The translations under genes were made by a program, and so were the position numbers. The notes under the pieces are model-generated. The model did no database searches. It saw only the letters and a list, made by a program, of their open reading frames with translations, and was not told where the DNA came from. Positions 10,087 to 29,373 of a stretch of 29,373 nucleotides of DNA are shown here, piece by piece (positions within the stretch are counted from its first letter, which is position 1; the number at the start of each line of letters is the position of its first letter). This DNA comes from a virus: the IMG/VR virus record IMGVR_UViG_3300012936_000108, positions 1 through 29,373 of that record; one strand, given 5' to 3'.

Positions 10087-10091
10087 ACTTA

Positions 10092-11612: not shown

Positions 11613-11623
11613 AATTTTTTATT

Positions 11624-12190: not shown

Positions 12191-12191
12191 T

Positions 12192-12587: not shown

Positions 12588-12604
12588 TTAATTTAATTTA
12601 ATTG

Positions 12605-14980
12605 TTAAAATCCAGATGTTGGTATAAAATCTGTGCCGGCTGACCATAATTCTTTTATACCACCTGGATCAGTAGTTGAATCTGTTTTTATCTTAACAGT
12701 TGCAAAATAACCTTTTATACCCGTAACAACAGGACCAAACCTAACTTCACCAGGTCTAACAACAGAGTCAGATATTATGTTAGCTACATACTTGTTTTCT
12801 TTTCTATTAAAACCAGCTCTTAATGGTTGACCAGTTAAAGCATCATAATATAATCCCTCTTCGTAACTTTTAACAGGTTTTATAGTGTCATCAAACTCCT
12901 GCCAAGAACCAGCTACACTTGTCATACCTTCTTTTCCAGAAGTAAAACCTTCAACCTCCCAACCGCTTCCACCTTCGTAGCTTATAGTTGTAAAATTTTT
13001 CACTGTTGAAGGAGCTTGATTAAAAACAAACGTTATACTAGAGTCATAAACATCATTGTAAAATTTAGTTCTATAAGGATTTTCCTCTTCGTAGTGTTGC
13101 CAAAGGTTTTTAGTTTCTGTAGTATAAAACTTATTCAATATACTAAACATAAAGTCAGGTTTGTAGCTCATGAAAGAAACCCAACCATTTATTTTTTCAT
13201 CAAAAACTAACGTATAAAAGTCTTTTCTATTTTCTTCTACACCTTGTATATCTTTTATTTTGTTAGGGTATTTTTGTAATGAAACAACATATTGCTTATT
13301 GTGTATGTCCCAGCCACCTATTACCTCGGACTTGTAACTAACTCTAAAATCGCACGATGTGTTATCAAATATTTTACTAGTTGTAGGTTTATTAAACCAT
13401 AGTCTAGTAGATCCGCTTTCTAATTCTTCTATAAGAGTTATAACAATGTTATCTTCAGGAGATATAAACCCGTCAACAACTAACTTCATACCAACTTGTA
13501 TAGTTGTTTTACCACTGAAATCAAATTCACCTAACAATGAACCTGCTGCTATATCTGCTTGCGCAATACCTGATACAGAAACATAACTGTCTTCATCCAT
13601 TAGTGCTAGGTTATCTCTAAACCAGTCTAACATACCATAATTACTTATCTCTGTTAAACCATCATTAGAAAGTCTCATTATAGCATTTCTATTTCTGTCT
13701 GAAAAATACTTCCTATAGTTATATATTGCAAATGATTCTGGATTTTTACTTATTCCGTAATCACCAGTATATGGAACAAACTGACCTATAACAGCGTTGC
13801 CCGCTTGAGTTTGAGTACCACTTTCGGTTGTATATATAACATCTTTATCTATAAGTGCTCTATGTATTCTATTTTCTTGGAACACTATTAAGTTTGTATC
13901 TTCAGCATGAGTTAACTGTATCGATCCATGAGATGGATCTAGAGACTTAGTTATATCTGTTCCAACTGAGAAAACATTTGTTTGATTTATACCTGTTCTA
14001 GAGTTATAAATACCTGAGTATATTAACGTGTTTATTCTCTTTTGCTGTAAAGGTTCTGGCTCATCTAAATATGCTCTAACACCTTGACCAGTAGAAGGGT
14101 TGTTGAAACCACCTCTTATTCTACCTTCTTCTAAATACCAATTGTCAGCTGTTTGTGCAAATTTCTTTCCATAAAAAACCTTTGGACCTATAGCAGCATA
14201 AGTTATTGGTAAAAATTCTCTAACATCCTCGTTATCTGCATCATCACCACAATTACCATCGTTACCAATTATATATAATAATCTTCTAAAATCTTCTGAT
14301 GGTCCTATTTCTATTTTTGCACCATACATTTTATTACCGTTGCCATCATCGTAGATTTCTTCAAGATATTTTTTATCAAATCTTGTTATTTCTCTTACAC
14401 CATCTTCGTCCCACTCGCATTGCTCTATAGCTATATAAACAGCGCAAGGATTTCCATCTTGATTTACTCCTAAGCCACTAGTTTGAAGTTCAAAAGTTTG
14501 TGCATTTAAACTTCCAGAGTTTCTACTTTCTATTCTTTTTCTAATTTTTTGAAAAATATTTCTACCAAAAAAACCGCTTGTAGTTTGTTTTTCTTGACTA
14601 AAGAAAGGTGGTAAAAGATATTGAGTATACACAAAATTGTCTAGACTAACATTTGGGCTAGTTACTGGTCCCCAACCTTGTGCTGAGGAAGGTGAGTCAT
14701 CACTCCAAGCGCCTTGTAGCCACTTTCCTTTTCTTTTAAACGGTGCGAAAAAAGGATTATTCAGTGCATAACTATAATCAATACCTGGTCCCGGTCTTAA
14801 CCTTTTAGCTCCAGATTGCTTAGGATAATTACTTTTATCAAGTTCTAATCTATATGGACCTGGAAGTGTAGCTCCAGGAAGCCAAACACCATTTTGACAA
14901 AAGAAATCATCTTGTAATGATGACCTTACATGTCTAGCTATATAAGCGTTAAAAAAATCTACTTCAACTATTAAACTCAT
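12605..14980 (-). CDS. Large tail structural protein (nozzle/muzzle-like, part 2)
   Basis: A 791-residue protein that begins SLIVEVDFFNAYIARHV. Its central part has NTLIYSGIYNSRTGINQTNV, VFQENRIHRALIDKDVIYT, GDYGISKNPESFAIYNYRKY and MRLSNDGLTEISNYGMLDWF. The C-terminal part has GWVSFMSYKPDFMFSILNKF and ends GIKGYFATVKIKTDS. These blocks recall the tail nozzle/muzzle-type region of large phage tail proteins, with beta-propeller-like spacing, and the pair with the preceding gene may act as one assembly. There is no depolymerase or receptor-binding motif that I recognise. The leader is AAAATTAATAGAC, without a strong Shine-Dalgarno sequence. It is followed after 17 bases by the GNAT-like gene. 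Confidence 0.72.
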   Translation of the reverse strand: MSLIVEVDFFNAYIARHVRSSLQDDFFCQNGVWLPGATLPGPYRLELDKSNYPKQSGAKRLRPGPGIDYSYALNNPFFAPFKRKGKWLQGAWSDDSPSSAQGWGPVTSPNVSLDNFVYTQYLLPPFFSQEKQTTSGFFGRNIFQKIRKRIESRNSGSLNAQTFELQTSGLGVNQDGNPCAVYIAIEQCEWDEDGVREITRFDKKYLEEIYDDGNGNKMYGAKIEIGPSEDFRRLLYIIGNDGNCGDDADNEDVREFLPITYAAIGPKVFYGKKFAQTADNWYLEEGRIRGGFNNPSTGQGVRAYLDEPEPLQQKRINTLIYSGIYNSRTGINQTNVFSVGTDITKSLDPSHGSIQLTHAEDTNLIVFQENRIHRALIDKDVIYTTESGTQTQAGNAVIGQFVPYTGDYGISKNPESFAIYNYRKYFSDRNRNAIMRLSNDGLTEISNYGMLDWFRDNLALMDEDSYVSVSGIAQADIAAGSLLGEFDFSGKTTIQVGMKLVVDGFISPEDNIVITLIEELESGSTRLWFNKPTTSKIFDNTSCDFRVSYKSEVIGGWDIHNKQYVVSLQKYPNKIKDIQGVEENRKDFYTLVFDEKINGWVSFMSYKPDFMFSILNKFYTTETKNLWQHYEEENPYRTKFYNDVYDSSITFVFNQAPSTVKNFTTISYEGGSGWEVEGFTSGKEGMTSVAGSWQEFDDTIKPVKSYEEGLYYDALTGQPLRAGFNRKENKYVANIISDSVVRPGEVRFGPVVTGIKGYFATVKIKTDSTTDPGGIKELWSAGTDFIPTSGF

Positions 14981-14995
14981 GTCTATTAATTTTAA

Positions 14996-17900
14996 TTATT
15001 GGGCCCCTTTATAAATTATTGTTCTAGTACGATATTCATCTGATGTTATGCTTCCTGCTCCACCATCCGCATCTTTTATTCTAAACCTAGCCTCTATAAC
15101 TATTGCTGCTCTATTATCACCGCTACTATTATAAGTTGCATTACCAGGCATCATGGAGGGGGCAAATGCAGCTGTTTGGTATGTACAATACTTTAGTTTT
15201 GGTTCAGCAGTAGGGTTTTGTATTGTCCAAGAATCAGCACCTTTTAATTTTTCTTTAAATTGAGTATCACCATTTTTCCAGCCTATATCCCACACCCTAC
15301 CAGTATCTTTTTGAAACTTACAAGTGTTAGCAACAGGGGTTTCTATAAGCTCGTATTTTAAACCTGCCAATCTATTGTTAGGATTGCTTACACTCCCATC
15401 ACTATTTCTATAATTATTATCACCATCACTAACATCACCTGATGGAACACTACCATTTGTGGTTTGAGCAAACTGAACTAACCAAGGACCAATACCATTC
15501 GTGTCTCTAGTGTCGCAAAGATCGTTCCAATCATCTTGTGCCCATACCACACAGTTAAATGAGTTACTTGCTGATTGGGTATTAACCGTGAATTCTGGGT
15601 TATTTGGATTTGCACTAGAAGAATCATTTCTCGTAAAAGCATCACTTCCAACAAAGTTTCTTAATGGAGTAACACTAGTTACTCCTCCGCTACAACCGGT
15701 TGGTGGCAGATCTGGAGCACGTGGCGTAGAAGGTTTAGGGCGGCAGTGAGTAAGTCTTTTTATAACTGGTTTTTCATTATTAATATAAACTTGTGGTTTT
15801 GAAACAGCAACGTCAACGTTAGGATCACTAGTATCAGTTATTCTAAAGTTAACAGTGAAAGGGTTGTTTTCAGCTGCAAAGCTAGTATATGCTAGCTTAT
15901 TATCTACTACCAATCCAAACTCTGGTGGTTGACCTACTACAGAACTTTTAACTACTTTTAATGCTGTTGGTGCATAGTAAGTATCACCAGCAAAACCAGT
16001 CATACTTTCAACGTTTACTTCAAGTGTTTCACTATCCATAGTTGCACCATCTTCATCTACAACTACAAATTGTTGGTTGCTTACTAATTCACCGCTATCT
16101 TTAGACTCAGGCCAAGTTACGCTAAAAGGAGATAAACCACCAGCGGTAGCTACACAAGGAGATTGGTTACAGTTATTGTTGTTAGCTATTATTTGTGGCG
16201 TTCCTGATGGAGGTGCAAATGGCGCTACGTCGTCTTGTGTTGATTCTAAATTTTCTTCGTAATACCAACAAGTTAAAGCGCCTGCAAATGAAGATTGATA
16301 TAGCTTACCTGGCGTAGCACCAGAAGGCATGTCACTCCTTAAGAAAATCCAAGTTGCTTGACCTAAACTCTCTATAATTAAAGGATCACAGAAAGTTATT
16401 TTAGATGCAAAAACAGCATCTTCTGGTGGACAAGAATCTCTACCTGCTATATCTCCATCATCTACTAAAGGTGATTCGTTATCGTATATTATAGGTATTT
16501 CACTTGAAAAACTATATGTTCTACCAGCGTAAGTAAATGCTGGTGATAATGATACTAATGGATTAATACTATAAACAGTAGATTTTTCAGGAAATAAAGC
16601 ATCATCACAAGTAGTATACTTATAACCTGTAGCTGCTGATGGCGGAACCGCATCTGGGTCTGTTGGTGAAACACCCTGAGAAGGTGGACCACCAGCTATT
16701 AAGTTGTTTAAATCTGAAACTAAACCACTAGTAGAGGTTTCCCAAAATATTTCTATTTTAGATTCAACAGGCTTAACCTCAAAACAGGCAAACAAAGAGT
16801 TCTTACTTGTTTTGTATGGTTCTATACCTAGAGATTCACCGTCAGCCATACCTAATATTATACACGTAGGATTGTTAGATGCTGACCATATACCTTGAGA
16901 TGTAGGGTATTCGTTTTGTTCTGTTTGAGCGGCAACTTGCATACCTAAGTCTGTCATCTTACCATACGCCGATATAGAAGCTCCTTTTTGACCTAAATAA
17001 AATTGATTAGCATAAGCTCTAGTTTCACCAGCAGATTTATAAGCTCCTACTCTAGGGTATAATATTGAGTTGCTTGTTCCAAATTGCGTTTGAAGAGGTG
17101 ATACTTCTGTTAAGTCAGCAGGAACCTTATTAACATTATCAGATATTAGACTAGTAACGTTAAAGTTGTTGTAGTTAACTCCGCTACCATAACCACCTGT
17201 TACAACTTGAGCCTCTGTATTTATATCAGTTACTTGACCTAAGAATACATTGTAAAAATCTTGTGCTTGCTGCTTAACAACAACCTTGTACGCGTGCCAA
17301 CCTAAAACATTTCCTTGGCTTTCAAAAGTTAAAACAGCTCCATCTTGGTAATTAGTATTACCTAAACCTTGAACGTAAACTCCATCTTCGTTAGGATCAT
17401 CTTGTCCTATTTTAACTTGACTTACTATTGATCTCTTTATTCCTTCGTCCTCTGTCAACCCACTAACTATGTCACCAACAGATATGTTACCGTACCTGTC
17501 TGAGTCATCAAAACCGTTTAACTGTATATTTCCATCGTTTTCAGTACTGTCAACAATCTTGCTGTAAGTAAGAGGTTTATAAAGACCAGGGTATCCAGGT
17601 TCATCTAGTCTCTCTGATGGTATTCCTTTTCTAAATAATACTTTTATAGAATCACCTCTCCACTCTGACACGTTAAACGTATCTTCTTCCGCGTAGGGAT
17701 GGTAAGTGGTTGACGCATCGAAAATTTCATTTACATCTGCTATGTTTACGCTAACTTGAGATGAAGAAAATTCAGAAAGAATTACGTCAGATTGTCTACC
17801 ATATCTATCAGATAATACTATTCCAACCTGATAACTTCTGTTCTGCTTAACAGTATGTTGAGGATAAGCTATAGCTGGAAGACTGGTTAGTCTATCAACT

Positions 17901-19837
17901 TGAGGAAAATCTTCAGCAGGTGTGTCGTAGGTTCCTGGTTTATATTTTTCAGATATTCTAACATTATATCCAATGTCTTTAGGTGGAGTATGCTTGTCTA
18001 TTATATTACCATATATTATTCTATTACCAGCTATAGACTGACTTTTAGCCCTAACAGGTACTTTATCGAATACTCTTATAGTTTCGCTTTCTGGCAAAAC
18101 CTTAAATGGTTTTTTAGATTGGTAATTAAAATTAAATACGTTAGTGTCGTTTTGAGAGAAAGAATCTTCATCAATAGATATACTTTCTAAAACGTATATA
18201 GCTAGACCACCATCATGATACAATACATCAACTTCTTTTACTTTAAGTTTGTCCTTTAATTCGTTACACTTATACTCAAAAGGTATTTGAATGTTAACAT
18301 TGTTAACTGAGTTTTCAAAAGATTGTATAACTGTAGAACTTGCTATAGCAATAGATTGATCAGTATCTTCGTATATAATCTCTTCCGGATCATCATCTTT
18401 TCCAGGTATTGCTAGTGTTCCCTCTGTCACTATATAGCCATTTTGCTTTGGTATAAAAGCTGGCTGCGTAAAAGGTGATATTAAAGAATATTCACCATCG
18501 TCAAACTTAAACCTGTAAGCAAACCTTACAAACTTATTACTTAATAAATCTTGATCACCAGGCCAGTTACCTGTATAGTTAGGATTTTGATAACCTATAT
18601 ACATTGAATCACCAGGTGATATATTAGTATTGTCGTCGGTGCCTATATCTCTATTAACAATAATTTGCATGCTAGTTATTCTACCGTCTGTAGAACTTCT
18701 ATCAATTACCATACTCTGTATTTCAAGAGGTTTCTCTAAACCAGCTGCTGTTACTTGCATACCAGGTAGTATTTCTTCAGAACTCCAATTTTTTACACTT
18801 ATGTTATAAAAAGTTTGAGAAGAAAACTCAACTTTAGCGTGTGGTTTTAAAAATTCATCATATTGATTTTGACTAGTAGGAAAGCCAAACTTTATAGATT
18901 TTAGATTACCATTGTAGTTAGCTGCGTCAGCGTCATCAAATGGACCTTTAGCTTCTTTAGGATTTTCAGCGTTTGGATCTGTATTTATTCTTATGTAGTA
19001 AAGTGTTAAAATATCATTTATAGGTACAACAAACTTTTCAATTATAAAAGCTCTAAACAGTGGTCTGGAAAAAGATTTCGTACTACTAGGTGAATCCTTT
19101 CTTTTAAAACCTAAAACTTCCATACCTATTTTTAACTTAGGCCATATACTTAAATCGTTTATATAGTAATAAGTAGAATAGTCAGTATAGCCCTGTAAGC
19201 TTCCAGGCCAAGCGTTATCCCACCATTCTATATTTTCTTGATTGTATTGATTTGTTATTTCTATCTCATCTTTTAATATGGGTGTTTTATATGGGTAGTA
19301 TTTTGCCACGGACAGGTGGTCTTCATTGTAGTAATAATTAGGTTGCTCAATAGCTGTTTTCCAATTTATTTTTCTAGGTTGATTTCTATTATCGGTAAAA
19401 TAAAGTAGATCTTCTAACATGTCTACACCTAACACTTTATGTGTTTTAGAAAAGTTTAGAAACCTTCCACTAACTAAAACTATTGGTTCATCTCCAATTT
19501 TTAAATAAACTATAAAGCAGTTAGCACCTAACGGCGCTGGGTTGCTTAAGTTGTCTTCAGATTCATCAGTGTAGTCTGTTAAAAAGAATATAACAGAGTT
19601 TTCAACCTCACTTTTGACGTAGCCTATTATTGATAAGTTTTCTAAATTAGAACCTGGTACTATTTCTTTTTCTAAAGAGTTACCTAGTATATTTTCCAAA
19701 GCACCAACGTCATCGCCCTCAGATCTACTTATATTAACGTTTAAAGCATCTCTATATTCACCTGCTGATAGAAGCCTGTCATCTAAGTCTTTGTTCATTT
19801 TTGATTGAACAAAGTTATTTTTCATCTGTGGAGCCAT
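14996..19837 (-). CDS. Large tail structural protein (nozzle/muzzle-like, part 1)
   Basis: A 1613-residue virion protein. The N-terminus (SKMNKDLDDRLLSAGEYRDA, then SEGDDVGALENILGN) is a hallmark I associate with large tail proteins of marine phages. Further pieces are RFAYRFKFDDGEYSLISPFT (about residues 434-453), a beta-rich core with YQVGIVLSDRYGRQSDVILS (about 668-687), and PVESKIEIFWETSTSGL (about 1023-1039). After about residue 1045 the chain changes: it is rich in Pro, Ser, Asn and Cys and looks like Ig- or cadherin-like beta domains (GLVVDNKLAYTSFAAENNPF), ending in a Cys-containing region. A tail-nozzle role by analogy to crAss-like muzzle proteins is inference; a tail-fibre base is an alternative. 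No membrane segment or enzyme motif is seen. It is followed 15 bases later by its probable partner. Confidence 0.72.
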   Translation of the reverse strand: MAPQMKNNFVQSKMNKDLDDRLLSAGEYRDALNVNISRSEGDDVGALENILGNSLEKEIVPGSNLENLSIIGYVKSEVENSVIFFLTDYTDESEDNLSNPAPLGANCFIVYLKIGDEPIVLVSGRFLNFSKTHKVLGVDMLEDLLYFTDNRNQPRKINWKTAIEQPNYYYNEDHLSVAKYYPYKTPILKDEIEITNQYNQENIEWWDNAWPGSLQGYTDYSTYYYINDLSIWPKLKIGMEVLGFKRKDSPSSTKSFSRPLFRAFIIEKFVVPINDILTLYYIRINTDPNAENPKEAKGPFDDADAANYNGNLKSIKFGFPTSQNQYDEFLKPHAKVEFSSQTFYNISVKNWSSEEILPGMQVTAAGLEKPLEIQSMVIDRSSTDGRITSMQIIVNRDIGTDDNTNISPGDSMYIGYQNPNYTGNWPGDQDLLSNKFVRFAYRFKFDDGEYSLISPFTQPAFIPKQNGYIVTEGTLAIPGKDDDPEEIIYEDTDQSIAIASSTVIQSFENSVNNVNIQIPFEYKCNELKDKLKVKEVDVLYHDGGLAIYVLESISIDEDSFSQNDTNVFNFNYQSKKPFKVLPESETIRVFDKVPVRAKSQSIAGNRIIYGNIIDKHTPPKDIGYNVRISEKYKPGTYDTPAEDFPQVDRLTSLPAIAYPQHTVKQNRSYQVGIVLSDRYGRQSDVILSEFSSSQVSVNIADVNEIFDASTTYHPYAEEDTFNVSEWRGDSIKVLFRKGIPSERLDEPGYPGLYKPLTYSKIVDSTENDGNIQLNGFDDSDRYGNISVGDIVSGLTEDEGIKRSIVSQVKIGQDDPNEDGVYVQGLGNTNYQDGAVLTFESQGNVLGWHAYKVVVKQQAQDFYNVFLGQVTDINTEAQVVTGGYGSGVNYNNFNVTSLISDNVNKVPADLTEVSPLQTQFGTSNSILYPRVGAYKSAGETRAYANQFYLGQKGASISAYGKMTDLGMQVAAQTEQNEYPTSQGIWSASNNPTCIILGMADGESLGIEPYKTSKNSLFACFEVKPVESKIEIFWETSTSGLVSDLNNLIAGGPPSQGVSPTDPDAVPPSAATGYKYTTCDDALFPEKSTVYSINPLVSLSPAFTYAGRTYSFSSEIPIIYDNESPLVDDGDIAGRDSCPPEDAVFASKITFCDPLIIESLGQATWIFLRSDMPSGATPGKLYQSSFAGALTCWYYEENLESTQDDVAPFAPPSGTPQIIANNNNCNQSPCVATAGGLSPFSVTWPESKDSGELVSNQQFVVVDEDGATMDSETLEVNVESMTGFAGDTYYAPTALKVVKSSVVGQPPEFGLVVDNKLAYTSFAAENNPFTVNFRITDTSDPNVDVAVSKPQVYINNEKPVIKRLTHCRPKPSTPRAPDLPPTGCSGGVTSVTPLRNFVGSDAFTRNDSSSANPNNPEFTVNTQSASNSFNCVVWAQDDWNDLCDTRDTNGIGPWLVQFAQTTNGSVPSGDVSDGDNNYRNSDGSVSNPNNRLAGLKYELIETPVANTCKFQKDTGRVWDIGWKNGDTQFKEKLKGADSWTIQNPTAEPKLKYCTYQTAAFAPSMMPGNATYNSSGDNRAAIVIEARFRIKDADGGAGSITSDEYRTRTIIYKGAQ

Positions 19838-19839
19838 AT

Positions 19840-21012
19840 TTAATATTTAATTTGCTTCGACTTTCCTCTAAATACTTGAACTATTTCGTTTAGCTTAATA
19901 TTCTGCAACCTTATTTTAGCATTTCTTAACTGAGCTGATCTATCTCTTTTAAATCTTTGAACAAGATACTCTGGAATGTTAGCTCTAGTAGACAATATAG
20001 AATAAGCTATATGCATGTACATTGCTTGTTCCGCCATTTTAGGTATTTTAACATCGCCATCTTTTGCTAAACCATCTGATATGTATTCTATTAATACAGT
20101 TCTTCCAGCTATATTACTAGAAAAACTAAACTTACCTGTTCTTTTATTAATATTAAACCAACCATTTTTTTGAGCATATTGAGGTTCTAAACCATATCTT
20201 TGACCATAGTTCATTTTCCACCAGTCGTAATCATATACATAAGTGTTGTCATCTAACCTGTCTCCAGATATATTATCAGGATTATTTCTTTTCCATCTTT
20301 GCTCTATTTTAGATTGAGCAGCGAGCAGATTTGATTCCAAGTTGTCTTGAGCAGGAACTCCTTCGTCATCTTGAAGAGGAAGCTCAGTTGGTGAAGTTGT
20401 TAAATTGTTAGTAGGATATATAGTTCTTTGAACACCTGACTCATCTATCCAAGAACACCTAACATAATTAACATAATCTTGAGGTATTATAATGGATAAG
20501 CTAGGTGGTACTGTCACCTCTTGAGACTTAATACTTTTTAGTGTGTCGTAGCTAAACTCTTGTAAACCTCTTTTCGCGTGCCATATAACGTCACTTCTTT
20601 TAACTCTACTTATTAACTTACCATCTCCTACATACGCGAATATAAAATTATTAACAATGTCAACTAAAGGTATATATTCATAACTACCGTAGTTAGATTC
20701 TAAAGATGGTTGATTTAACTCGACAACAACTATATCACCAATTTGAAAATCAAATGTAGGATTACCAGTGTCTGTGCGAAACAAAACTGTGTTAGGATAA
20801 CTAAGTGAAAGTCTTTCAGGTTCTATATTTATAACTTGATCTTCTCTTAACACAGTTACTGAAAAATTAATATTAGAAACACCAAATATAGTGTCTACTA
20901 AATTAGTATTAAAAGTGCACTTAAATTTAAGAAATTGTGGTGTAGTATCTTGAACTACGAATTTTTGTTGACCAGAATAATACTGAGCGTTAGTTTCTTT
21001 TAGTAGTGCCAT
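19840..21012 (-). CDS. Probable tail/neck ring (connector) protein 2
   Basis: A 390-residue protein with a beta-rich N-terminal third (residues 1-110) and then a conserved-looking block, FAYVGDGKLISRVKRSDV and HAKRGLQEFSYDTLKSIKSQ, followed by EVTVPPSLSIIIPQDYVNYV. This block recalls a structural protein seen between capsid and large tail genes in uncultured marine and crAss-like phages. The role is plausibly similar to tail-tubular or P22 gp4-type adaptors, though I cannot demonstrate the fold. The basic, helical C-terminus (RFKRDRSAQLRNAKIRLQNI) could contact DNA or neighbouring rings. It is packed 3 bases after the previous gene and 2 bases before the next, so it is surely part of one transcript with them. 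Confidence 0.75.
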   Translation of the reverse strand: MALLKETNAQYYSGQQKFVVQDTTPQFLKFKCTFNTNLVDTIFGVSNINFSVTVLREDQVINIEPERLSLSYPNTVLFRTDTGNPTFDFQIGDIVVVELNQPSLESNYGSYEYIPLVDIVNNFIFAYVGDGKLISRVKRSDVIWHAKRGLQEFSYDTLKSIKSQEVTVPPSLSIIIPQDYVNYVRCSWIDESGVQRTIYPTNNLTTSPTELPLQDDEGVPAQDNLESNLLAAQSKIEQRWKRNNPDNISGDRLDDNTYVYDYDWWKMNYGQRYGLEPQYAQKNGWFNINKRTGKFSFSSNIAGRTVLIEYISDGLAKDGDVKIPKMAEQAMYMHIAYSILSTRANIPEYLVQRFKRDRSAQLRNAKIRLQNIKLNEIVQVFRGKSKQIKY

Positions 21013-21015
21013 TTC

Positions 21016-21798
21016 TTATGCTTTTTTATTTGCTTCATTAGCTTGGAGTTCTCCAGCAGCAGCTTGAATTATTGTAGGATCTTTAACAACAACTCCAGCG
21101 TATTTAAGTATTTCAAGTATAACCTCTGATTGTAGATTATCACTTATTTCAAAATCTTGAGAAGAGCCTCCTATTATTGGGTTGCTACCAGTGTATACTT
21201 TATCCCAAACGTATTGACCTAAATCACCTACAGCGTAAGCCCATACAACGTCCTGTGGCTTTCTTACGTAATTAAATGTAACATCACCAGCTTCTGGAGA
21301 ATACCTTGGAGATCTAGGAAATACTGTTAATTCGTTTTTTTGGTAAGTTGCTATAGGAAAATCTAGTGACGGTTGTAATATTGGAGATAATAATTGTTGA
21401 TTAAATTCTCTTTTATCTAGTATTTCTATTTCTGGACTAGAATCCACCGCTGTAAAATAAACAGAACCTAATCTATATACACTAGGTTTAGGAGGTGAAG
21501 AGCTAGCACCAGGTTCTCTGTAAATAGTAACATTGTTAGTACCACCAACAACAGCTGACGCAATGTTTGTCTCTTCAAATATTTGAATCTCATCGTAAGC
21601 TTGATCTATTTTAGAAGCAAACTCTGTTTCTAATTCAGGCATTCTTAAAAACTGAGAGTAGTTGTCAAACATTTTTTCAAACATTTCAAGCTGCACTTGA
21701 GTTGCTATTTTGTTGAACTCATCTGGCGTTAAGTATCCTCTTTGCTCTTTGTTCATTATACTTAATACCGTAGTGTATACAGTGTTAACGTTTATCAT
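21016..21798 (-). CDS. Probable head-tail connector / ring protein 1
   Basis: A 260-residue protein, first gene after the second terminator. The N-terminus (TVYTTVLSIMNKEQRGYLTP, then EFNKIATQVQLEMFEKMF) is helical and matches, from memory, a family sitting between capsid and tail genes in marine and crAss-like phages. There it is treated as a portal-proximal ring or adaptor. The middle is beta-rich (IATYQKNELTVFPRSP, VTFNYVRKPQDVVWAY) and the C-terminus is helical and Ala-rich. The leader is AAACCCGTAAAT, without a Shine-Dalgarno sequence. It is followed after 3 bases by another connector-like gene. A structural role in the neck is likely; the exact position in the particle is inference. Confidence 0.75.
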   Translation of the reverse strand: MINVNTVYTTVLSIMNKEQRGYLTPDEFNKIATQVQLEMFEKMFDNYSQFLRMPELETEFASKIDQAYDEIQIFEETNIASAVVGGTNNVTIYREPGASSSPPKPSVYRLGSVYFTAVDSSPEIEILDKREFNQQLLSPILQPSLDFPIATYQKNELTVFPRSPRYSPEAGDVTFNYVRKPQDVVWAYAVGDLGQYVWDKVYTGSNPIIGGSSQDFEISDNLQSEVILEILKYAGVVVKDPTIIQAAAGELQANEANKKA

Positions 21799-21810
21799 AT
21801 TTACGGGTTT

Positions 21811-21838
21811 AAAAAAAGGCGGCGAATAGCCGCCTTAA
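21811..21838 (-). terminator. Intrinsic terminator between the 254-residue gene and the first connector gene
   Basis: A perfect inverted repeat, AAGGCGGC, loop TATTC, GCCGCCTT, is followed on the minus strand by a run of T that makes seven in total. This is a textbook rho-independent terminator for leftward transcripts. It lies 12 bases upstream of the ATG of the first connector gene, so downstream genes depend on read-through or on a promoter inside the preceding gene. Confidence 0.93.
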
Positions 21839-21851
21839 TTATTATCACTTG

Positions 21852-22616
21852 TTATTTGAGTTTTTTCTCTATTGACTTAAAAACCTCTATACCTTCGTCT
21901 GTTTTTAACCAAGACGACATAGCTGAGTATGGGTTTTCGTCAAAAGGCACGTTCATTAATTTTCTACCATTTGATCCCCATTTAAAAGATCTTTGATCAC
22001 TAGATAGTTTAATTATACCTCTTTCAGCAGCTACAATACATAAGTTTCTTAACTGTAAATCTTCGTCTTGAGCTAAGTCTATGAATAAAGCTGGGTTTCT
22101 TCTAGCAAACAATAGAGCATCTCTTTTAAGTTCTTTAGAACTCATCTTAGATACATTATTTCCTAACTCTGTTCTCATTATAGCTTCCATAAAGTCTACA
22201 TCCATTTGAACAGCCATGTTCATTGCAACAACTTGAAGTTCTAAGTCCTCTGTTTGAACTTTAGCTACCTCAACAGCATCGTGCTCTTTAAATAATCTAT
22301 TTTTGTGTGGATGTTTTTCTAAAAACTCTTGTAAATTTCTTTTTTCTTTTGGCACGTATAAAAATCCATCTTCAAAAACTATATGTTTTAAAGTTACCTG
22401 TCCTTTTTGTTCATCAACAAAAACTGATTTTTGGTTTGTAGCGTACCTTAATTCTCTTTCATATCCTTTTTCTGGGTCAAACCAAACTAAAGGATACCTT
22501 CTAGTATGCTTACTAGACAATGTAAATGTTAGTGGTGATTGGTTATTAAGTAAATAGTAATGTCTATCTTTATAAATCCACTTGTCTTCTTTTAATTCTT
22601 TTTCTTTTGATTCCAT
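21852..22616 (-). CDS. Conserved-looking phage protein of unknown function, flanked by terminators
   Basis: A 254-residue protein with no enzymatic motif I can see. The N-terminal half is basic and aromatic (YATNQKSVFVDEQKGQ, GFLYVPKEKRNLQEFL). The C-terminal half is helical, with KMSSKELKRDALLFARRNPALFIDLA, then FKWGSNGRKLMNVPFDENP, and ends in a short helix. The pattern recalls an unannotated protein found beside the capsid in marine phages, so it is probably an ordinary member of the head module. A head-completion or nucleic-acid-binding role is possible but unproven. It sits between two strong intrinsic terminators, one about 20 bases before its ATG and one 13 bases after its stop. There is no room for a separate promoter upstream except inside the terminator or the preceding gene. 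Its leader is A/T only. Confidence 0.8.
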   Translation of the reverse strand: MESKEKELKEDKWIYKDRHYYLLNNQSPLTFTLSSKHTRRYPLVWFDPEKGYERELRYATNQKSVFVDEQKGQVTLKHIVFEDGFLYVPKEKRNLQEFLEKHPHKNRLFKEHDAVEVAKVQTEDLELQVVAMNMAVQMDVDFMEAIMRTELGNNVSKMSSKELKRDALLFARRNPALFIDLAQDEDLQLRNLCIVAAERGIIKLSSDQRSFKWGSNGRKLMNVPFDENPYSAMSSWLKTDEGIEVFKSIEKKLK

Positions 22617-22636
22617 AATATAATATATAATAATTT

Positions 22637-22664
22637 AAAAAAGACCCCGCGTTAGCGGGATCTT
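22637..22664 (-). terminator. Intrinsic terminator after the capsid genes
   Basis: On the minus strand the sequence folds as AAGATCCCGC, loop TAAC, GCGGGGTCTT, followed by a T-run ending at 22637. The stem is complete on the minus strand if one U-G wobble is allowed. On the plus strand the same position would be an A-C mismatch, so the hairpin is built for leftward transcripts. It lies 17 bases after the stop of the 132-residue gene and about 20 bases before the ATG of the 254-residue gene. It should end or reduce the capsid transcript. Confidence 0.9.
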
Positions 22665-22681
22665 ATAATTGTTATGAAGGT

Positions 22682-23080
22682 TTATGCTTGTCCTCCGTCT
22701 CCGTCTCCGTCTCCGTCACCATCATCTGCAGGGTTTGCAGGGACAGCAGCGTCAACCAAACCTAGTCCATTCACAGCGCCAGCAGCACCTGAAAGAACTT
22801 GAGATTGAGCAGCTAAAACAGAAGGGGCATTTTTAATGGCCTTCTCTTTTAACGCGGTTAATTGAGCAGATCTTTCTTTTTTCTGCTCTTCGGATCCTTG
22901 CAATCCAGCTATTAGTTGATCTATAGCGTTAAGTGATACAGCTTCTACTTTACAGTAAAATATATCACCATTAGTCATAGTAAACTTCGTAGTGTTTTCA
23001 GGATATGTGTCACCAGCTCCTTCAAAACTCTTTACAACGCCGTGCATTGCTGTTCCGTTATCAGCTCTTAATGTTCCCAT
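22682..23080 (-). CDS. Small head-associated protein with Asp-Gly repeat tail
   Basis: A 132-residue protein 31 bases downstream of the capsid gene and the last gene before a strong terminator. Residues 1-60 look like a small beta-rich domain (KFTMTNGDIFYCKVEAVS). Then come a helical segment with GSEEQKKERSAQL and an Ala/Gly-rich linker. The tail at residues 119-130 is DDGDGDGDGDGG, encoded by a 6-base repeat. Being in the same transcript as the capsid suggests a head decoration, fibre or completion role and high expression, but this is inference. The Asp-Gly tail could bind Ca2+ or simply be flexible. I do not recognise a family with certainty. Confidence 0.75.
   Translation of the reverse strand: MGTLRADNGTAMHGVVKSFEGAGDTYPENTTKFTMTNGDIFYCKVEAVSLNAIDQLIAGLQGSEEQKKERSAQLTALKEKAIKNAPSVLAAQSQVLSGAAGAVNGLGLVDAAVPANPADDGDGDGDGDGGQA
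22693..22717. repeat. Hexanucleotide tandem repeat (tccgtc)n inside a coding region
   Basis: About four copies of a 6-base unit (tccgtc on the plus strand, GACGGA on the coding strand) lie at the 3' end of the 132-residue gene and encode Asp-Gly pairs. Since the unit is six bases, copy-number changes would lengthen or shorten the Asp-Gly tail by two residues per unit without a frameshift. Confidence 0.85.
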
Positions 23081-23111
23081 AATTTCTATATTTTAAAATG
23101 TTAATAATTAA

Positions 23112-24602
23112 TTAAGCTCCTTTGAATAACACGAAGTTATTAGCAGCTTGTACAACTAAACATCTTTCAGATAAGAAATTAACTCTCATAGCATCAAGAT
23201 CAGAAGTGTAAGCACCTCCCACAGATCCAGTGATCCATGATTTGTATCTTCTGTCTTCAGTTTCAGAAGCTCTATATCTTACATGTAAGAAAGGTCTTCT
23301 AATGTTTGATCCTAACATTTGATCGTAAACTGTTGTAGTACCAGCTGGAACCATAACACCATCAATAGCGTTAGACATTCCTCTAGTAGTAGCATCGTTT
23401 AAATATTTCCAGTCAGTTTTGTAGAAGTCATAAGAACCTCTTCTGAAACCAGAAAAACCAAAGTTAAGTGCCATTTCAGCTTCATTGTCAAAAAGACCGT
23501 AAGAAGCAGCAGCAACACCAGCATATCCTCCGCCAGCCATTGCAGCAATCATGTCGTCAAAATCAAGAGCAGTAGATCTTGATAAGAATAACATGTTTTC
23601 TTCAATTGCACCTTGAGTATCTAATTGCTTAAGTATCTCATCAAAATCAGCTAGAGCGCCGTTACCTGGAGCAGCAGCACCAGAGAATCCAGAGTATATG
23701 TTACCTCTTTGCTCTATAGCAGAGAATAAACCTTCAGTTCCCTGAATGTTAACATTAGCACCCTCTGCAACACCATATTTGATTTTAATTTCGTTAGAAG
23801 CTTTAACACCTTCAACCATTGACATTTCTAAGTAATCATCGAAACGTAATCTTGTTTCAGACTCAGACTTTAAATACCATAAGTATCCTGATGTACCGTC
23901 TTCAGTAGCAACTTCAACCCAACCAATTTGAGCAGTATCAGAACCGTTAATCTCAAAATTGTCTTTAAGAATAATAGGTCTGTTTGAAAACTGTGTAAAT
24001 TGTGGCTCTATAGATCCAGACATTCCAGTTGAACCTTTAGCAAATTCAGAACCGTAAACAAATAAATCAATATCCTGACCTGATAACGTATCAATTTTAC
24101 CAGCGTATATAGATACAACAATTTCAGCGTTGGTTTCACCTTCAACAGCTGTTACTACAGCTTTTCTAGTTACTAATCCAGTAGCAGAATCACTTATTAA
24201 AATTGTTTGACCAACTCTAATAGCTCCACTTGGATCATTACCTAATGTTAGGTCGATCGTACCTGAAGTTTCGTCTCCTTCTGTTCCTTCTTTGAAAGAG
24301 CAGTTTTTGTAAGCAACGTGTAGTCTATTCTGCTCAGACCAAATAACCTGATCAGATGTCATTGGCATTTCAGCGCCAACCATTCTTAAGAATCCAGATA
24401 ACGTTCTGTTACCGAATCTTTCTACTTCCGCTTCATACAGTTCTGGTAAGTACTGTTGTGCAAAAGTACCTCCACCGTCAGCACTATTAAAATCTAAATA
24501 ATTAGAATTTAAAGTCATTTTCTTTGGTTGAGGTTGTATACCTGGAGCATTAGACACTAATTTAGCATCTGTCATAACTCCTGTTGGTTTAACTTCACTC
24601 AT
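23112..24602 (-). CDS. Major capsid protein
   Basis: A 496-residue protein in the position of the major head subunit. The sequence resembles, from memory, major capsid proteins on marine phage contigs: QYLPELYEAEVERFGNRTL, VGAEMPMTSDQVIWSEQNRL, FRRGSYDFYKTDWKYLND and SERCLVVQAANNFVLFKGA at the very C-terminus. An HK97 fold is expected for tailed phages but cannot be shown from sequence by eye. No prohead-protease gene is visible nearby, and the first 35 residues look like a flexible arm. The ATG follows the 17-base leader ACTTAAAACTATAAAAA, which lacks a Shine-Dalgarno sequence although this should be the most highly expressed gene. It is co-transcribed with the 132-residue gene before the first terminator. 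Confidence 0.9.
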   Translation of the reverse strand: MSEVKPTGVMTDAKLVSNAPGIQPQPKKMTLNSNYLDFNSADGGGTFAQQYLPELYEAEVERFGNRTLSGFLRMVGAEMPMTSDQVIWSEQNRLHVAYKNCSFKEGTEGDETSGTIDLTLGNDPSGAIRVGQTILISDSATGLVTRKAVVTAVEGETNAEIVVSIYAGKIDTLSGQDIDLFVYGSEFAKGSTGMSGSIEPQFTQFSNRPIILKDNFEINGSDTAQIGWVEVATEDGTSGYLWYLKSESETRLRFDDYLEMSMVEGVKASNEIKIKYGVAEGANVNIQGTEGLFSAIEQRGNIYSGFSGAAAPGNGALADFDEILKQLDTQGAIEENMLFLSRSTALDFDDMIAAMAGGGYAGVAAASYGLFDNEAEMALNFGFSGFRRGSYDFYKTDWKYLNDATTRGMSNAIDGVMVPAGTTTVYDQMLGSNIRRPFLHVRYRASETEDRRYKSWITGSVGGAYTSDLDAMRVNFLSERCLVVQAANNFVLFKGA

Positions 24603-24619
24603 TTTTTATAGTTTTAAGT

Positions 24620-25750
24620 TTATTTTTTTCTTGTTTTTATTTTCAACTTAGAACTGTCAACACCTGAAATAGCACGAACTTTAAAACCATTTATTGTTAA
24701 TGACTCGTTGTTTTGAGGTCTAGATGCAGCCTCAATGTTTTTCGATTTATTAACAATCTCTTTAGTCGCGTCGGTTTTACCCTGCTCATAAAAATGTTTT
24801 GCAATTTCGTCCATATTTCTAGCAGCATACATAGCTTTGTGGTAGTTTTTGTGATCTACTTCTTCTTCACCCGATAGAAACCTTCCTACGAGACCTTGAA
24901 GTTTTGATTGTTCTTCTACAACTCTATCAACGTTTTTGACATTATACCTAAACTTTTTATCACCAAGGTTAAACTCAAAACCTTTGAAATCCTTAGCAAA
25001 GTAGTTTTTAGTTTCGTCTTCAAACGATTGTAATTTCTGCTTTCTTATATCTTGTTCTTTGTTGTATCTATTGAAAAAGTCTAAAGCTTTTTGTTGATCT
25101 TCGCTAATAGAGGGTTTCAACTTGATCTCCTCATAATATTTAGCTTTTGTCTCTTCTAAAAAACCTTTGGCTTTGGCAATTTCTTCTTTAAAAGCGAGTT
25201 TCTTTTTCTTTATATCTCGCTCTTCATCAACCTCCTCGTCATACGAAAATTTATCTTCCATAATAAAAGATATTTCGTCACTATCTAAGTGAGGTTTAGT
25301 ATTTTTATAATATTCTCTTAATAAAGTTTTTTCATCAACGTTAGAATAATCTATATTTAATCTAACATAATCTTGTATTGTACCACCTGTATCTGACATG
25401 AAGTCAGCTAGCTTTTTTAAACTAGATGGTAATTCATATACAGTCTCTTTTATTTCTTTAGCTTCTTCGGTAGGTTTTTCTTCTTCGTGTGTTGATCCCA
25501 CTTCTTGCAGTTCCACGACTTGTTCTTCCTTCTCCTCATTAGACTGTAACACAGTTTCCTCTGGTTTTGACTCTTGAACGGCATCTTCTTCTTTATTTAA
25601 TTCAACAACCTCTTCTTTATCTTCTTTATTTGACAAGTCAACCTTCGTTGTGTTATCAACTTGTTTAGCTAGGTTTTTAACTTTCTTTTTAACTTTAAAT
25701 TCACCTTGCGTCAACTCACCATCTGGAGTTTCTTTTATTTCTTCTGACAT
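24620..25750 (-). CDS. Probable capsid scaffolding protein
   Basis: A 376-residue hydrophilic protein between portal and major capsid, the classic place for a scaffold that guides capsid assembly and then leaves or is degraded. The first 110 or so residues are extremely acidic and low in complexity, with runs of Glu, Lys and Val (KEDKEEVVELNKEEDAVQE). The middle, about residues 170-260, is charged and predicted helical or coiled coil. The last part is basic and ends KLKIKTRKK, a plausible capsid-binding tail. I see no protease motif. The leader (AACTATTATATTATATT) has no Shine-Dalgarno sequence. Function rests on position and composition rather than a recognised motif. A minor head protein is the main alternative. 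Confidence 0.72.
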   Translation of the reverse strand: MSEEIKETPDGELTQGEFKVKKKVKNLAKQVDNTTKVDLSNKEDKEEVVELNKEEDAVQESKPEETVLQSNEEKEEQVVELQEVGSTHEEEKPTEEAKEIKETVYELPSSLKKLADFMSDTGGTIQDYVRLNIDYSNVDEKTLLREYYKNTKPHLDSDEISFIMEDKFSYDEEVDEERDIKKKKLAFKEEIAKAKGFLEETKAKYYEEIKLKPSISEDQQKALDFFNRYNKEQDIRKQKLQSFEDETKNYFAKDFKGFEFNLGDKKFRYNVKNVDRVVEEQSKLQGLVGRFLSGEEEVDHKNYHKAMYAARNMDEIAKHFYEQGKTDATKEIVNKSKNIEAASRPQNNESLTINGFKVRAISGVDSSKLKIKTRKK

Positions 25751-25772
25751 AATATAATATAATAGTTAATAA

Positions 25773-28160
25773 TTACTGTGATAATAAATCACTGTATTTT
25801 GCATTGAAATCTATAGGTGGTCCATCTGTTTGTCTCTGATTTATCATCTCACTTTGTTGGCTACCTTCTAGTTTAATTCTTTCGTCTTTTCTTTGTTCGA
25901 TCATTTTTTCTTTTTGATCAACCTGTTGCATATCCATTTCTTTTAACTGCTTGTCAAAACCATATTTTATTTGCATTAAGTTTTGGTCAATCTGAGCTTG
26001 AGCTTGCATTTCGTTTATTTTAAACTGAGACTTACCTTGCTCTATTTGCAGTGTTGTTTCAGCTAAAGCTGTCTGCTTGTTCATTTCAGCTAAAGCAGCT
26101 CTCTCAGCAGCTTGTGCGTTTGCATCAGCTTGTACCCTCATATTCTCCTGAGCTCTAGCTTGATCTTCAGCAGCTTTCTTTTTTCGTTTAAATTTAAGAA
26201 CTTGATTCGCTAATTTAAGATTTTTTATTTCTCTTATTTCTATAGCATCTTCTAAATTTATACTTTGAGTTTGTAAAGATACTTGAATACTATTTTCTAA
26301 TTGTGCTTTTTCCTCTTCATCTGGCATCAGCTCTAAATATATACCAAATTCAAAAAGATTTAATTGATACATATCTTCTAAAGTTCCAGTATTGAAAGTG
26401 CTTATGCTTGATCTTAAAGCTTGTCTAGTTAATGGGTATTCTAAAGCATCGTTAACTCTAAGAGATATATTCTCACAAGTTTTAGCTGATAAGTATAAAC
26501 TAGCTTGTACTATATGTTTAGTAGCTGTGTTTGAATTTGCGGCAGCTAATTTTTGTAAACCTACTAGTGAATCTTTATTAGGAACACTACCATCTCTAGC
26601 TTCATTTAAACCAGTAACATCTCTCATCATTTGTAAATAGTACTGATAAGCTTGTATTAAAGCACCCATCTTACCAGCTCCACTATTAGTGTTCAACTCT
26701 TGTATAGGAACTTTCCCTGGGTTAGCTCCACCATCTTGAGTCATTGATCTACCAACTATACTACCAGTTTGAAAATACATATTTAAAGCTTCCTGTGGAT
26801 TGTAAGTAGTTCCATTACCAAGATCAACCTCAGCCAAACCGTCAACATCTAGGAAAACACCATCTGGTACTGTTCTTGCTAGAACTTGTTGAAGTTTTAA
26901 ATGAGTTAACTGTATCATATCGGCAAAACCAGTCATTCTACCTACTAAAGATTCTATTCTACCTTTGTACATTTTAGGTGCACAAATATTATAACTCATG
27001 TTTACTTTAACAAGGTTTGACATTGGTCTTGTCATGTTTTTAGACATACCCCATTTAAGCATAGTGTCGTGGCCAAGTATTTTAGCGCCGCTATATAATA
27101 CTTCTATAGACCTAGATATTCTATCAAAGTTATCGTTTTTAGGTGGATTAAATGTGTCTGGCTTTTCTAATGTTTTTTCTAGACCGGTGGGAGTTTCTTT
27201 AATTTTAAATACTTGGTTACTGTATGTTTTGTATTCAAAATATAAAACAGCTATATTGTTACCATCTCTTCTACCGTTGTATTGATAGTTATAACTTTCT
27301 AGCCCAGGATATTTTTCTATTTTTAAAAGTTCTTCGTCTGTTAGATGCGGAAACTCTTTCTTAAGTTCAGACAAGCTTATGTATTTAACTTCACCTACAT
27401 ACCATATATCTTGAAAGTTTGGATCGTTAGTATAAGAATAAACTAAATTAGCTGGATCCACGTAATCAACTTTTATTCCCTCTGACAAGTTAAAACTAGT
27501 CTTAACAGCGCCAATACCTAAAACAACTAAGTCCTCTGATATTCTTCTTCTAGTTAAATCATATTTATTAAAAGCTAATGTGTTAGTTATAGCTTCTTCT
27601 TCAGCTATTTCTATAGATTGCTTATAATTTAATTGCATGTGAACATCTAATTCCTCTTTATTTTGAGGTAACTCTTCTGGATTAGCAGTAGAGTACATGT
27701 TCATTCCTGTTACTGATTGTATTTTATCTATAAGTTTTTTACCTTGTATATCTCTAAGTAAAGCATCTGCATAGGCAGTTCTTGCTTTCATAGATTCTGG
27801 GTCTTGAGCGTAAGCCTTGACATCATACAGCTTTCCGTCCATACCATTTACAACAATATCAACAAATTTAGGTATAATAGGAACAGGTTTCCAATCTAAG
27901 TTTAAATAACTTAAATCTCCATTTATTGCTAATTCATCTTTGTATTTCTGAACAGACTGTTCGCCTCTAGCGTATAGTCTAAGGTTTCTAAAATTATTAA
28001 AGTTAGTATCATACCTACCGCCAGTCATGGATCTGGTACCACCAAACCAATCACCTTCGATAGCTCTAGCAACTTTCCTACCGTAGTCTAAACTTGCTTT
28101 TACCTCGTCAGATACAACCTGATCTGGAAAAGAGCTACCATTATAAGTTTTTATTTGCAT
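25773..28160 (-). CDS. Portal protein
   Basis: This is the probable dodecameric portal at the packaging vertex, through which DNA enters and leaves the head. At 795 residues it is in the long portal class. The conserved-looking core includes PVPIIPKFVDIVVNGM (about residues 92-107), SIEVLYSGAKILGHD, FADMIQLTHLKLQQV and RDVTGLNEARDGS. All of these recall portals of uncultured marine phages, as I remember them. From about residue 640 the chain becomes rich in Gln, Lys, Glu and Ala (QAQIDQNLMQIKYGF and similar), predicting a long coiled coil that may reach toward the head interior or scaffold. It starts one base after the TerL stop with no Shine-Dalgarno sequence, and is followed after 22 bases by the scaffold-like gene. 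The order TerL, portal, scaffold, capsid supports the call. Confidence 0.9.
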   Translation of the reverse strand: MQIKTYNGSSFPDQVVSDEVKASLDYGRKVARAIEGDWFGGTRSMTGGRYDTNFNNFRNLRLYARGEQSVQKYKDELAINGDLSYLNLDWKPVPIIPKFVDIVVNGMDGKLYDVKAYAQDPESMKARTAYADALLRDIQGKKLIDKIQSVTGMNMYSTANPEELPQNKEELDVHMQLNYKQSIEIAEEEAITNTLAFNKYDLTRRRISEDLVVLGIGAVKTSFNLSEGIKVDYVDPANLVYSYTNDPNFQDIWYVGEVKYISLSELKKEFPHLTDEELLKIEKYPGLESYNYQYNGRRDGNNIAVLYFEYKTYSNQVFKIKETPTGLEKTLEKPDTFNPPKNDNFDRISRSIEVLYSGAKILGHDTMLKWGMSKNMTRPMSNLVKVNMSYNICAPKMYKGRIESLVGRMTGFADMIQLTHLKLQQVLARTVPDGVFLDVDGLAEVDLGNGTTYNPQEALNMYFQTGSIVGRSMTQDGGANPGKVPIQELNTNSGAGKMGALIQAYQYYLQMMRDVTGLNEARDGSVPNKDSLVGLQKLAAANSNTATKHIVQASLYLSAKTCENISLRVNDALEYPLTRQALRSSISTFNTGTLEDMYQLNLFEFGIYLELMPDEEEKAQLENSIQVSLQTQSINLEDAIEIREIKNLKLANQVLKFKRKKKAAEDQARAQENMRVQADANAQAAERAALAEMNKQTALAETTLQIEQGKSQFKINEMQAQAQIDQNLMQIKYGFDKQLKEMDMQQVDQKEKMIEQRKDERIKLEGSQQSEMINQRQTDGPPIDFNAKYSDLLSQ

Positions 28161-29373
28161 TTATTTTATTATTTGTGATAAACTACCTTTGTTATTATAC
28201 TTTTTAATACCTAAGTTTATTTTTTTCATACCTCTATCGGCAACTGGTTTGTATCTATTTTTGTTACAAGCCATAATGGCTAAACCAGAACTTATGGTGG
28301 CATCATGCTTTGTTCTATTGTTTATATTGAATGTTGCCCAATCTTCCAAAGTTTTTTGAAAATACATATCTCCATAACCTTGGTCTAAATTTCCAACATA
28401 AGTTTCTATATAACTTTCAATAGCTGCTGCATGCGCTTGTTTAATATCTTCACTTGAGTTTGGTATTCCACCTATTTCTTTTTCAGTTGTGGATAACTTA
28501 TTCCAAACTTTGTCAGGTCTATTCATACTGAAACCTCTATAACCTCTTCTTTTTAAATAATACAAAAATCTAGGTTTATTGTTTTCAGCAAGTATTGGCA
28601 TACCATAAAAATGTAAAGCCATTAGTATCTCTTCAAAAAATATTTCAGCCGTTTGAGGTCTAGCTATATATTCTAAAAAAAAGTGATTAGGCGGCGCGTC
28701 TTCCATTGAGAACTTAGTTAATCCATGAAGTGATCCATTAGAGCCTTTACCATCGACAGTGCCAGAAATATCGTAACTATCGAGACCAAATGCTCCAATG
28801 TGTTCATTTCCAGGATACTTAATTCCATTTTTTATTATTATATTGTTTTGCAAGTTCAAAGGCGGAACCCATGAAACTATAAATCTACCATTTTCATTAG
28901 GCATGAATATAACCTTAGAATCTTTAATACCCTGAGTCCACATAAAACTACCTCTAGTTATAGACTTTATATTGTTAAACTCATCGTTATAATCTATTTG
29001 TTGATATATCTTTGTTAAATTAAATAAACTATCTTTTGTTTCGTCTCTAAAAGCATGAGCTTCAGTTCTTGGAAACTGTCTATAATATTCATTTAAACTA
29101 TCACTATCATTTTTTAATCCTTCGACTTCGTTTTCCCAGTGTTCGATAACTCCAATTTCAATTGGTAAACCATCTCTTCCAATTTTTTTATCTTCGCTTG
29201 AAGTGAATACAGGTAATCCAAAAGTATCCATGAATCCTTCGTAATTCCATTCCATAGGTATGAAGAAAGAATAGAGTCCGCTAGACGTTTGTCCGTTTCT
29301 ATTTCTTTTTGTAACGTCTGAACTGTAGTAAAGTTTTTTGAAATTGTTTCCACCTTTATCTAACGCGTTTGAA
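28161..29373 (-). CDS. terL: Terminase large subunit (TerL), 5' end beyond the window
   Basis: This is the phage DNA-packaging motor subunit, whose C-terminal nuclease cuts concatemeric DNA at the portal. The reading frame stays open upstream of the Met at 29255 to the right edge. Those extra codons read ...NRNGQTSSGLYSFFIP, a stretch familiar to me from TerL proteins, so the gene is truncated and that Met is internal. The visible part is the end of the ATPase region plus the RNase H-like nuclease domain. Candidate catalytic acids, numbered from the Met at 29255, are D159 in AFGLDSYD, E224 in PILAENN and D318 in TKHDATISSG. The Walker A and B motifs lie outside the window. The stop codon at 28161-28163 directly abuts the portal ATG, so the two genes are probably translationally coupled. 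Terminase next to portal is the usual phage order. The identification is strong; the triad assignment is inference from spacing. Confidence 0.9.
   Translation of the reverse strand, partial: SNALDKGGNNFKKLYYSSDVTKRNRNGQTSSGLYSFFIPMEWNYEGFMDTFGLPVFTSSEDKKIGRDGLPIEIGVIEHWENEVEGLKNDSDSLNEYYRQFPRTEAHAFRDETKDSLFNLTKIYQQIDYNDEFNNIKSITRGSFMWTQGIKDSKVIFMPNENGRFIVSWVPPLNLQNNIIIKNGIKYPGNEHIGAFGLDSYDISGTVDGKGSNGSLHGLTKFSMEDAPPNHFFLEYIARPQTAEIFFEEILMALHFYGMPILAENNKPRFLYYLKRRGYRGFSMNRPDKVWNKLSTTEKEIGGIPNSSEDIKQAHAAAIESYIETYVGNLDQGYGDMYFQKTLEDWATFNINNRTKHDATISSGLAIMACNKNRYKPVADRGMKKINLGIKKYNNKGSLSQIIK

Follow-up and report, generated by a model that had tools for sequence, protein, structure and literature searches.

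Two hairpins, T1 and T2, which flank a gene for a 254-aa protein (p254) downstream of the capsid gene, appear from their sequences to be conserved transcriptional punctuation of crAss-related phages. In the reading that we favor, and to which we give a probability of roughly 60%, they would separate the head, p254 and connector/tail units from one another; in the clade to which the DNA belongs (clade W), transcription would restart at p254 from a putative late promoter, TATATTATATTATG, and the tail would be served either by read-through or from a second element, AACAAGTGATTATAA.

The window, by which we mean the whole stretch of DNA analysed, is a 29.4-kb virus record (29,373 nt) with all of its large genes on the minus strand. 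Their order is terminase, portal, a 376-aa scaffold-position gene, the major capsid protein (MCP), a 132-aa gene, T1, p254, T2, genes of 260, 390, 1613 and 791 aa, and others. The last gene in this order (121-10086) encodes a 3321-aa protein with a polynucleotide-kinase-like stretch at 2364-2542 (phrog_415, E 1.6e-6) and no Pfam family match. The 791-aa protein is the crassvirus muzzle by its matches to PF25731 and PF25729, and this protein, together with a head gene order like that of phi14:2 and crAss001, identifies the phage, as judged from its genes, as a crAss-related podovirus. The scaffold-position gene (24620..25750, minus strand), an ORF between portal and MCP, has a homologue at the same position across relatives and matches no PHROG or Pfam family; it is the presumed opening gene of the head unit. 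The MCP (496 aa; 23112..24602, minus strand) matches phrog_13704, a virion structural protein family (E 6.6e-89), and its homologues in Cellulophaga phages are annotated as structural or major capsid proteins. No hairpin separates MCP from the 132-aa ORF that follows it (22682..23080, minus strand), and by this anatomy the two are probably co-transcribed; no phmmer relative of the 132-aa protein was found in other loci. Beyond p254 (21852..22616, minus strand), the 260-aa gene (21016..21798, minus strand; phrog_14543, virion structural, E 6.1e-18) holds the position of a ring protein and is the first of the tail/connector unit; in crAss001 the ring proteins gp34 and gp35 come after gp33.

T1 (22635..22664) was recognized from the letters, an energy scan, conservation and covariation, and T2 (21809..21836) from the first three of these. 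The T1 stem (22664-22641) has 10 bp and a 4-nt loop and is followed by TTTTTT, and that of T2 (21836-21816) has 8 bp and a 5-nt loop and is followed by TTTTTTT. The next ATG lies about 18 nt past the U-run of T1 and 10-12 nt past that of T2. An earlier note had described two intrinsic terminators bracketing the 254-aa gene, and both are indeed present on the coding (minus) strand. Its description of them as lying directly after the capsid genes holds for the post-capsid position as such, but the 132-aa gene separates T1 from MCP here. Within the surrounding 1.5 kb, T1 and T2 reached -16.0 and -14.0 kcal/mol, respectively, and the runner-up hairpin with a U-run, inside the p254 gene, -11.5 kcal/mol. 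A simple scan of positions 10000-29373 gave 11 terminator-like sites vs 9.1 (sd 2.8) in shuffles; because this is the number expected by chance, the terminator count was rejected as evidence. T1 and T2 stand out among those sites by strength alone, as the two with the most G-C pairs. A standard sigma-70 promoter scan was uninformative as well (90 hits vs 72 in shuffles).

What sets T1 and T2 beyond chance is their conservation at these two junctions. IMG/VR supplied relatives of p254 and MCP (the best 80 loci each of about 600 stretches), to which regions from seven isolates were added. The 150 loci with both genes became 136 after dropping identical p254 DNA, and consist of clade W and a few isolates. 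The hairpin threshold was -9 kcal/mol or better, and 5 loci that ended too early were dropped for the junction after p254 (n=131). A hairpin with a U-run was found before p254 in 129/136 loci and after it in 115/131. Elsewhere in the same loci the counts were 0/85 (terL-portal), 11/135 (portal-scaf), 1/134 (scaf-MCP), 0/92 (p260-p390) and 0/18 (p390-p1613), with 0.23 per kb within genes. When the U-run was not required, hairpins were present in the 80 nt upstream of p254 in 131/136 loci and in the 80 nt downstream in 130/131, vs 37/408 and 35/393 dinucleotide shuffles (about 9%); the corresponding figures before MCP, the 390-aa gene, the portal gene and the scaffold-position gene were 3/136, 7/93, 1/106 and 27/135. 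The T1 stem also covaries: in a set of 31 sequences, picked for stem diversity from 60 offered plus the window, double changes occurred at 4 of the 8 pairs and a single pair was ever broken, in 2/31 sequences. Consensus folding of T2 gave no pairs, from a MAFFT alignment that had the stems out of register. With a GC-rich stem-loop, an immediate U-run and a structure under selection, T1 and T2 can be regarded as genuine intrinsic terminators, which would presumably stop transcription to some degree.

The same arrangement was present outside clade W. Further p254 relatives, again with identical p254 DNA removed, fell into clades A (MW202828-like), B (Elemovirus) and C (phi38:1/Calle, Pervagoviridae). 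In a tree of 64 selected MCP rows, a well-supported branch sets each of the clades W, A, B and C apart from the rest; the placement of W beside A was weakly supported (86/70) and came with a long-branch warning. Clade A had a hairpin with a U-run behind MCP in 70/72 loci and before the 260-aa gene in 73/74, with 0/266 at its other junctions. In clade B these values were 18/18 (12/18 within 110 nt of p254) and 15/20, and in clade C 4/4 and 4/4, with 1/4 at portal-scaf. We also considered a sample of 11 records with crAss001-like MCPs, in which stems without a U-run were judged by eye. A hairpin with a U-run follows MCP in crAss001, cr126_1 and Kolpuevirus, and in phi14:2 with a short U-run; cr53_1 and cr131_1 have a GC hairpin without a U-run, ProJPt a weak GC stem, cr6_1 and cr113_1 AT-rich stems only, further down, and Fpv3 and cr115_1 no hairpin after MCP. 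Steigviridae crassviruses retain a T1-type hairpin. There is no room for T2 in crAss001 and phi14:2, where the p254-like gene is followed immediately by the next one.

The earlier note had argued that no promoter can fit between the hairpins and the following start codons, a view that proved wrong for relatives with the same layout because promoter boxes lie behind their T2 or T1. The Bacteroidetes sigma-ABfr promoter is characterized, in the part of PMC6847099 used here, by TTTG or TAnnTTTG, the latter being the -7 element. We scanned for TAnnTTTG, that is for the -7 box only, within the 70 nt upstream of each ATG, with shuffles that keep base composition only; J0 denotes the junction before the scaffold-position gene, J1 that between T1 and p254, and J2 that between T2 and the 260-aa gene. 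The box was found at J0, the start of the head operon, in every locus of clades A (50/50), B (15/15) and C (4/4; 69/69 together), and behind T2 at J2 in 73/74, 20/20 and 4/4 (97/98 together). At J2 of clade A it starts 21-23 nt before the ATG in 67/73 loci and adjoins the U-run in the consensus. Behind T1 at J1 it was present in 17/18 loci of clade B, 1/72 of clade A and 0/4 of clade C. Control junctions gave, for A, B and C respectively, 0/54, 0/16 and 1/4 (scaf-MCP), 1/70, 0/19 and 0/3 (p260-p390), 0/64, 0/18 and 0/3 (p390-p1613), and 18/28, 1/8 and 3/3 (terL-portal). Clade W differed: its counts at J0, J1 and J2 were 1/129, 0/129 and 2/105, with 8.9, 9.0 and 3.8 expected from shuffles. Upstream of ORFs the box occurred in 0/67 and 0/60 cases in two long W contigs (7 and 6 on the opposite strand), in 16/73 in elemo and in 9/82 in phi38:1, and in the window itself it is absent between either hairpin and the next ATG. 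By these counts clade W has lost its TAnnTTTG boxes.

Clade W carries a 14-mer of its own, TATATTATATTATG, a putative late promoter or initiation element. The window contains two exact matches, one ending in the ATG of the scaffold-position gene at J0 (25748..25761, minus strand) and one ending in the ATG of p254 at J1 (22614..22627, minus strand); with up to 2 mismatches there are 5, vs 1.2 expected. In 1.45 Mb of loci the motif, with one position open to either T or C, lies at 101 starts of the scaffold-position gene and at 109 starts of p254. The remaining copies are 6 labelled inside p254, which are probably early start calls, and 1 other, with 0 on the opposite strand. Ten long W contigs have two exact copies each, except G002 with one. 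Behind T2 in the window there is neither TATATTATATTATG nor a TAnnTTTG box, and other gene starts of clade W have A-rich leaders. Given that pentamer-repeat leaders also precede the start codons of some other W genes, TATATTATATTATG could instead be a translation or operator element.

A second clade-specific, promoter-like element, ACAAACTAAATACGA-N9-GATAATA, stands before early genes of clade W, with 27 sites in 6 W genomes (e.g. L281:13039-18980, L307 and L312) and 0 in shuffles, in elemo, in phi38:1 and in the MW202828 region. The ATG follows GATAAT by exactly 6 nt at 14 of the 27 sites and by 5 nt at 2, and is farther away or unassigned at 11. This spacing suggests leaderless mRNAs, and with 16/27 elements ending 5-6 nt from an ATG a promoter that abuts the start codon looks common in clade W. 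Both this element and the 14-mer, which ends exactly at the start codon of p254, also speak against the no-promoter argument within clade W.

A candidate for a protein that reads TATATTATATTATG is a 249-aa sigma-70-like protein of W genomes, which matches sigma-70 region 2 (PF04542, E 3.3e-5, at the curated cut-off), the RNA polymerase sigma factor family phrog_351 (E 8.8e-18) and SigA chains (E 3.7e-7). The gene (L282:1571-2320 in the contig of G003, a W relative; it is not in the window) was found in 6/10 W contigs and 0/14 A, B and C genomes, the four W contigs without it being 42.7-48.3 kb long. In L282 it neighbours a gene for a 206-aa protein with weak HTH matches, and in G004 (8176-8855) it is broken by stops, through sequencing error or decay. 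The correlation between sigma-like gene and boxes is one evolutionary event. It is a tentative proposal, somewhat short of even odds, that clade W swapped the Bacteroidetes promoter language for its own: a phage sigma would read the 14-bp TATATTATATTATG as a late promoter at start codons, at p254 behind a terminator; head and p254 mRNAs would be leaderless and arise from terminator-promoter cassettes; and early genes would use ACAAACTAAATACGA-N9-GATAATA as a second, clade-specific leaderless promoter.

In the favored reading, T1 and T2 would cut the late region into a head unit (scaffold-position gene, MCP and 132-aa gene), p254, and the connectors and tail. In clade W, TATATTATATTATG at the scaffold-position and p254 starts would act as a late promoter read with the phage-encoded sigma factor, initiation there would yield near-leaderless mRNAs, and p254 would thereby be transcribed anew past T1. 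Beyond T2, the tail unit would depend on read-through or on AACAAGTGATTATAA, a conserved element immediately ahead of the T2 stem. Capsid mRNA would consequently be high, with p254 and the connector/tail proteins at separate, lower settings. Against this reading, T1 has no box behind it in clades A and C, and p254 must be reached there by read-through or from an unseen source.

This lack of a box at T1 in A and C would suit serial attenuation in the style of T7, with one upstream late promoter, leaky T1 and T2 and no restart, such that capsid exceeds p254 and p254 exceeds tail. The absence of any known promoter behind T2 in clade W points the same way, as does a third hairpin (T0), which lies directly behind MCP in 30/31 W loci in which extra gene(s) put more than 600 nt between MCP and p254 and in only 1/67 loci with the window layout (an MCP-p254 space of 200-600 nt); no 14-mer follows it in the 30 third-hairpin sequences inspected. 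The addition of T0 where extra genes follow MCP fits a step logic. The promoter box directly behind T2 in A, B and C and behind T1 in B, and the 14-mer that marks the p254 start in W, count against a cascade without restarts, and we consider it possible but rather unlikely. Of the three-step drop that the earlier note had envisaged, the terminator-type hairpins, the T7-like position and a likely role as steps survive, but the no-promoter argument does not. An antiterminator, also sought, was not found in family scans. T0 has a shorter U-run (TTTATTAA) in L006, L007, L019 and 27 other loci.

The U-runs bear on whether the hairpins are instead 3'-end stabilisers or processing sites of RNA, which would shield capsid mRNA or divide one mRNA from the next once cleavage has occurred. 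At least 5 T are found within 8 nt past the last G-C pair in 126/136 hairpins at J1 and 110/130 at J2, and this prevalence, like the boxes directly behind T2, fits a terminator rather than a processing site. About 14/130 J2 and 5/136 J1 hairpins (read from the listing) do keep a long stem without a real U-run, and some Crassvirales likewise retain a post-MCP hairpin without one, which speaks for a stabiliser; we judge this explanation improbable. Loci with the long stem kept and the U-run gone are L139, L141, L142, L143, L146 and L150 after p254 and L133, L136 and L158 before it. In this sub-clade of W the hairpin either works without a U-run or serves a different purpose.

Between the p254 stop and the T2 stem lies a further conserved element, represented in the window by AACAAGTGATAATA (21839..21853, minus strand). 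Its W consensus is TAACAaGTgAttATAAt (logo of 112 W sequences), and 47 matches were found after p254. In the form AACAAGTGATTATAATA, this element has a 16-nt identical copy at the start codon in the muzzle position of the W genome G003. That T2 of clade W is mainly the 5'-terminal hairpin of a tail mRNA from a promoter at AACAAGTGATTATAA, hence a leader and only secondarily a terminator, is very unlikely. In its favor, the conserved element adjoins the stem on its upstream side, also in the U-run-less sub-clade, and its copy adjoins the muzzle-position start codon. Against it, a transcript of this kind would end immediately at the U-runs, up to 8 T long, of the majority of W T2 hairpins; the copy at the muzzle position is too near the ATG for a standard -10 box, and the clade A sequences inspected have no such element.

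The gene between the hairpins encodes a protein of phrog_34748 (E 2.3e-28), whose position after MCP is conserved. It occurs in 85 phage records, as many as MCP and in the same host groups, by totals and not row by row. In relatives it is hypothetical among neighbours with structural labels: phi18:3 gp105 is unlabelled next to proteins with MS/MS evidence, and phi38:1 gp94 is unlabelled next to proteins called structural by similarity. An AlphaFold model (pLDDT 78.8, pTM 0.54) retrieved crAss-like viral proteins with Foldseek, 11 of them at an E of 0.001 or less; one of the proteins retrieved, from phi14:2, has 294 aa, which is the length of the post-MCP gene g090 there; no PDB fold (best E 1.4) and no Pfam family was found. 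Its C-terminal part resembles crAss001 gp33 in an hhalign profile comparison (prob 92, E 6.2e-7). The main text of the crAss structural atlas (PMC10172136) contains no mention of gp33 or scaffold. In assembly, p254 probably acts as a factor that is non-structural or present in few copies. The spot behind p254 also receives insertions, as small genes or more than 1 kb of extra sequence before the matched tail gene (L160 8306-9409, L163 8344-10126, L002, L016, L018, L046 and L114); in phi18:3 the inserted sequence is on the opposite strand.

Our literature searches, covering titles and parts of PMC6847099, PMC8375218, PMC6235969, PMC10172136 and PMC13288928, found neither this arrangement nor any terminators or promoters described for the capsid region of crAss-like phages. 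For crAss001, the portion of PMC8375218 used here names host RNA polymerase as the likely enzyme for middle and late genes, and the word terminator is absent from it. crAss001 and other Steigviridae share with the window the order of scaffold-position gene, MCP and p254-like gene, and in several of them a hairpin with a U-run directly after MCP, but they have no T2. Clades A, B and C resemble the Bacteroidetes sigma-ABfr system in the -7 box at the head-operon start and behind T2, whereas the window and clade W lack that box at these junctions. T4 late promoters consist of a -10 element only and are read by gp55. The W element is likewise short and AT-rich and lacks a clear -35, and W genomes encode a phage sigma candidate, but the element adjoins the start codon. 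The switch of promoter language in clade W, together with a sigma-like gene absent from relatives, leads to a hypothesis on phage takeover of transcription. In T7, the terminator T-phi follows capsid gene 10, and here too an intrinsic hairpin with a U-run lies between the capsid and the tail/connector genes. T7, however, has one terminator and its own single-subunit polymerase, whereas two terminators here bracket one extra gene and, in the window's relatives, promoter boxes are fused to them. Termination after the capsid gene, a known trick of T7, would thus be double, promoter-fused and kept across crAss-related phages; these abundant, mostly uncultured viruses would gain a testable map of late transcription, in which p254, a conserved crAss-related protein, would be singled out by an expression setting of its own.
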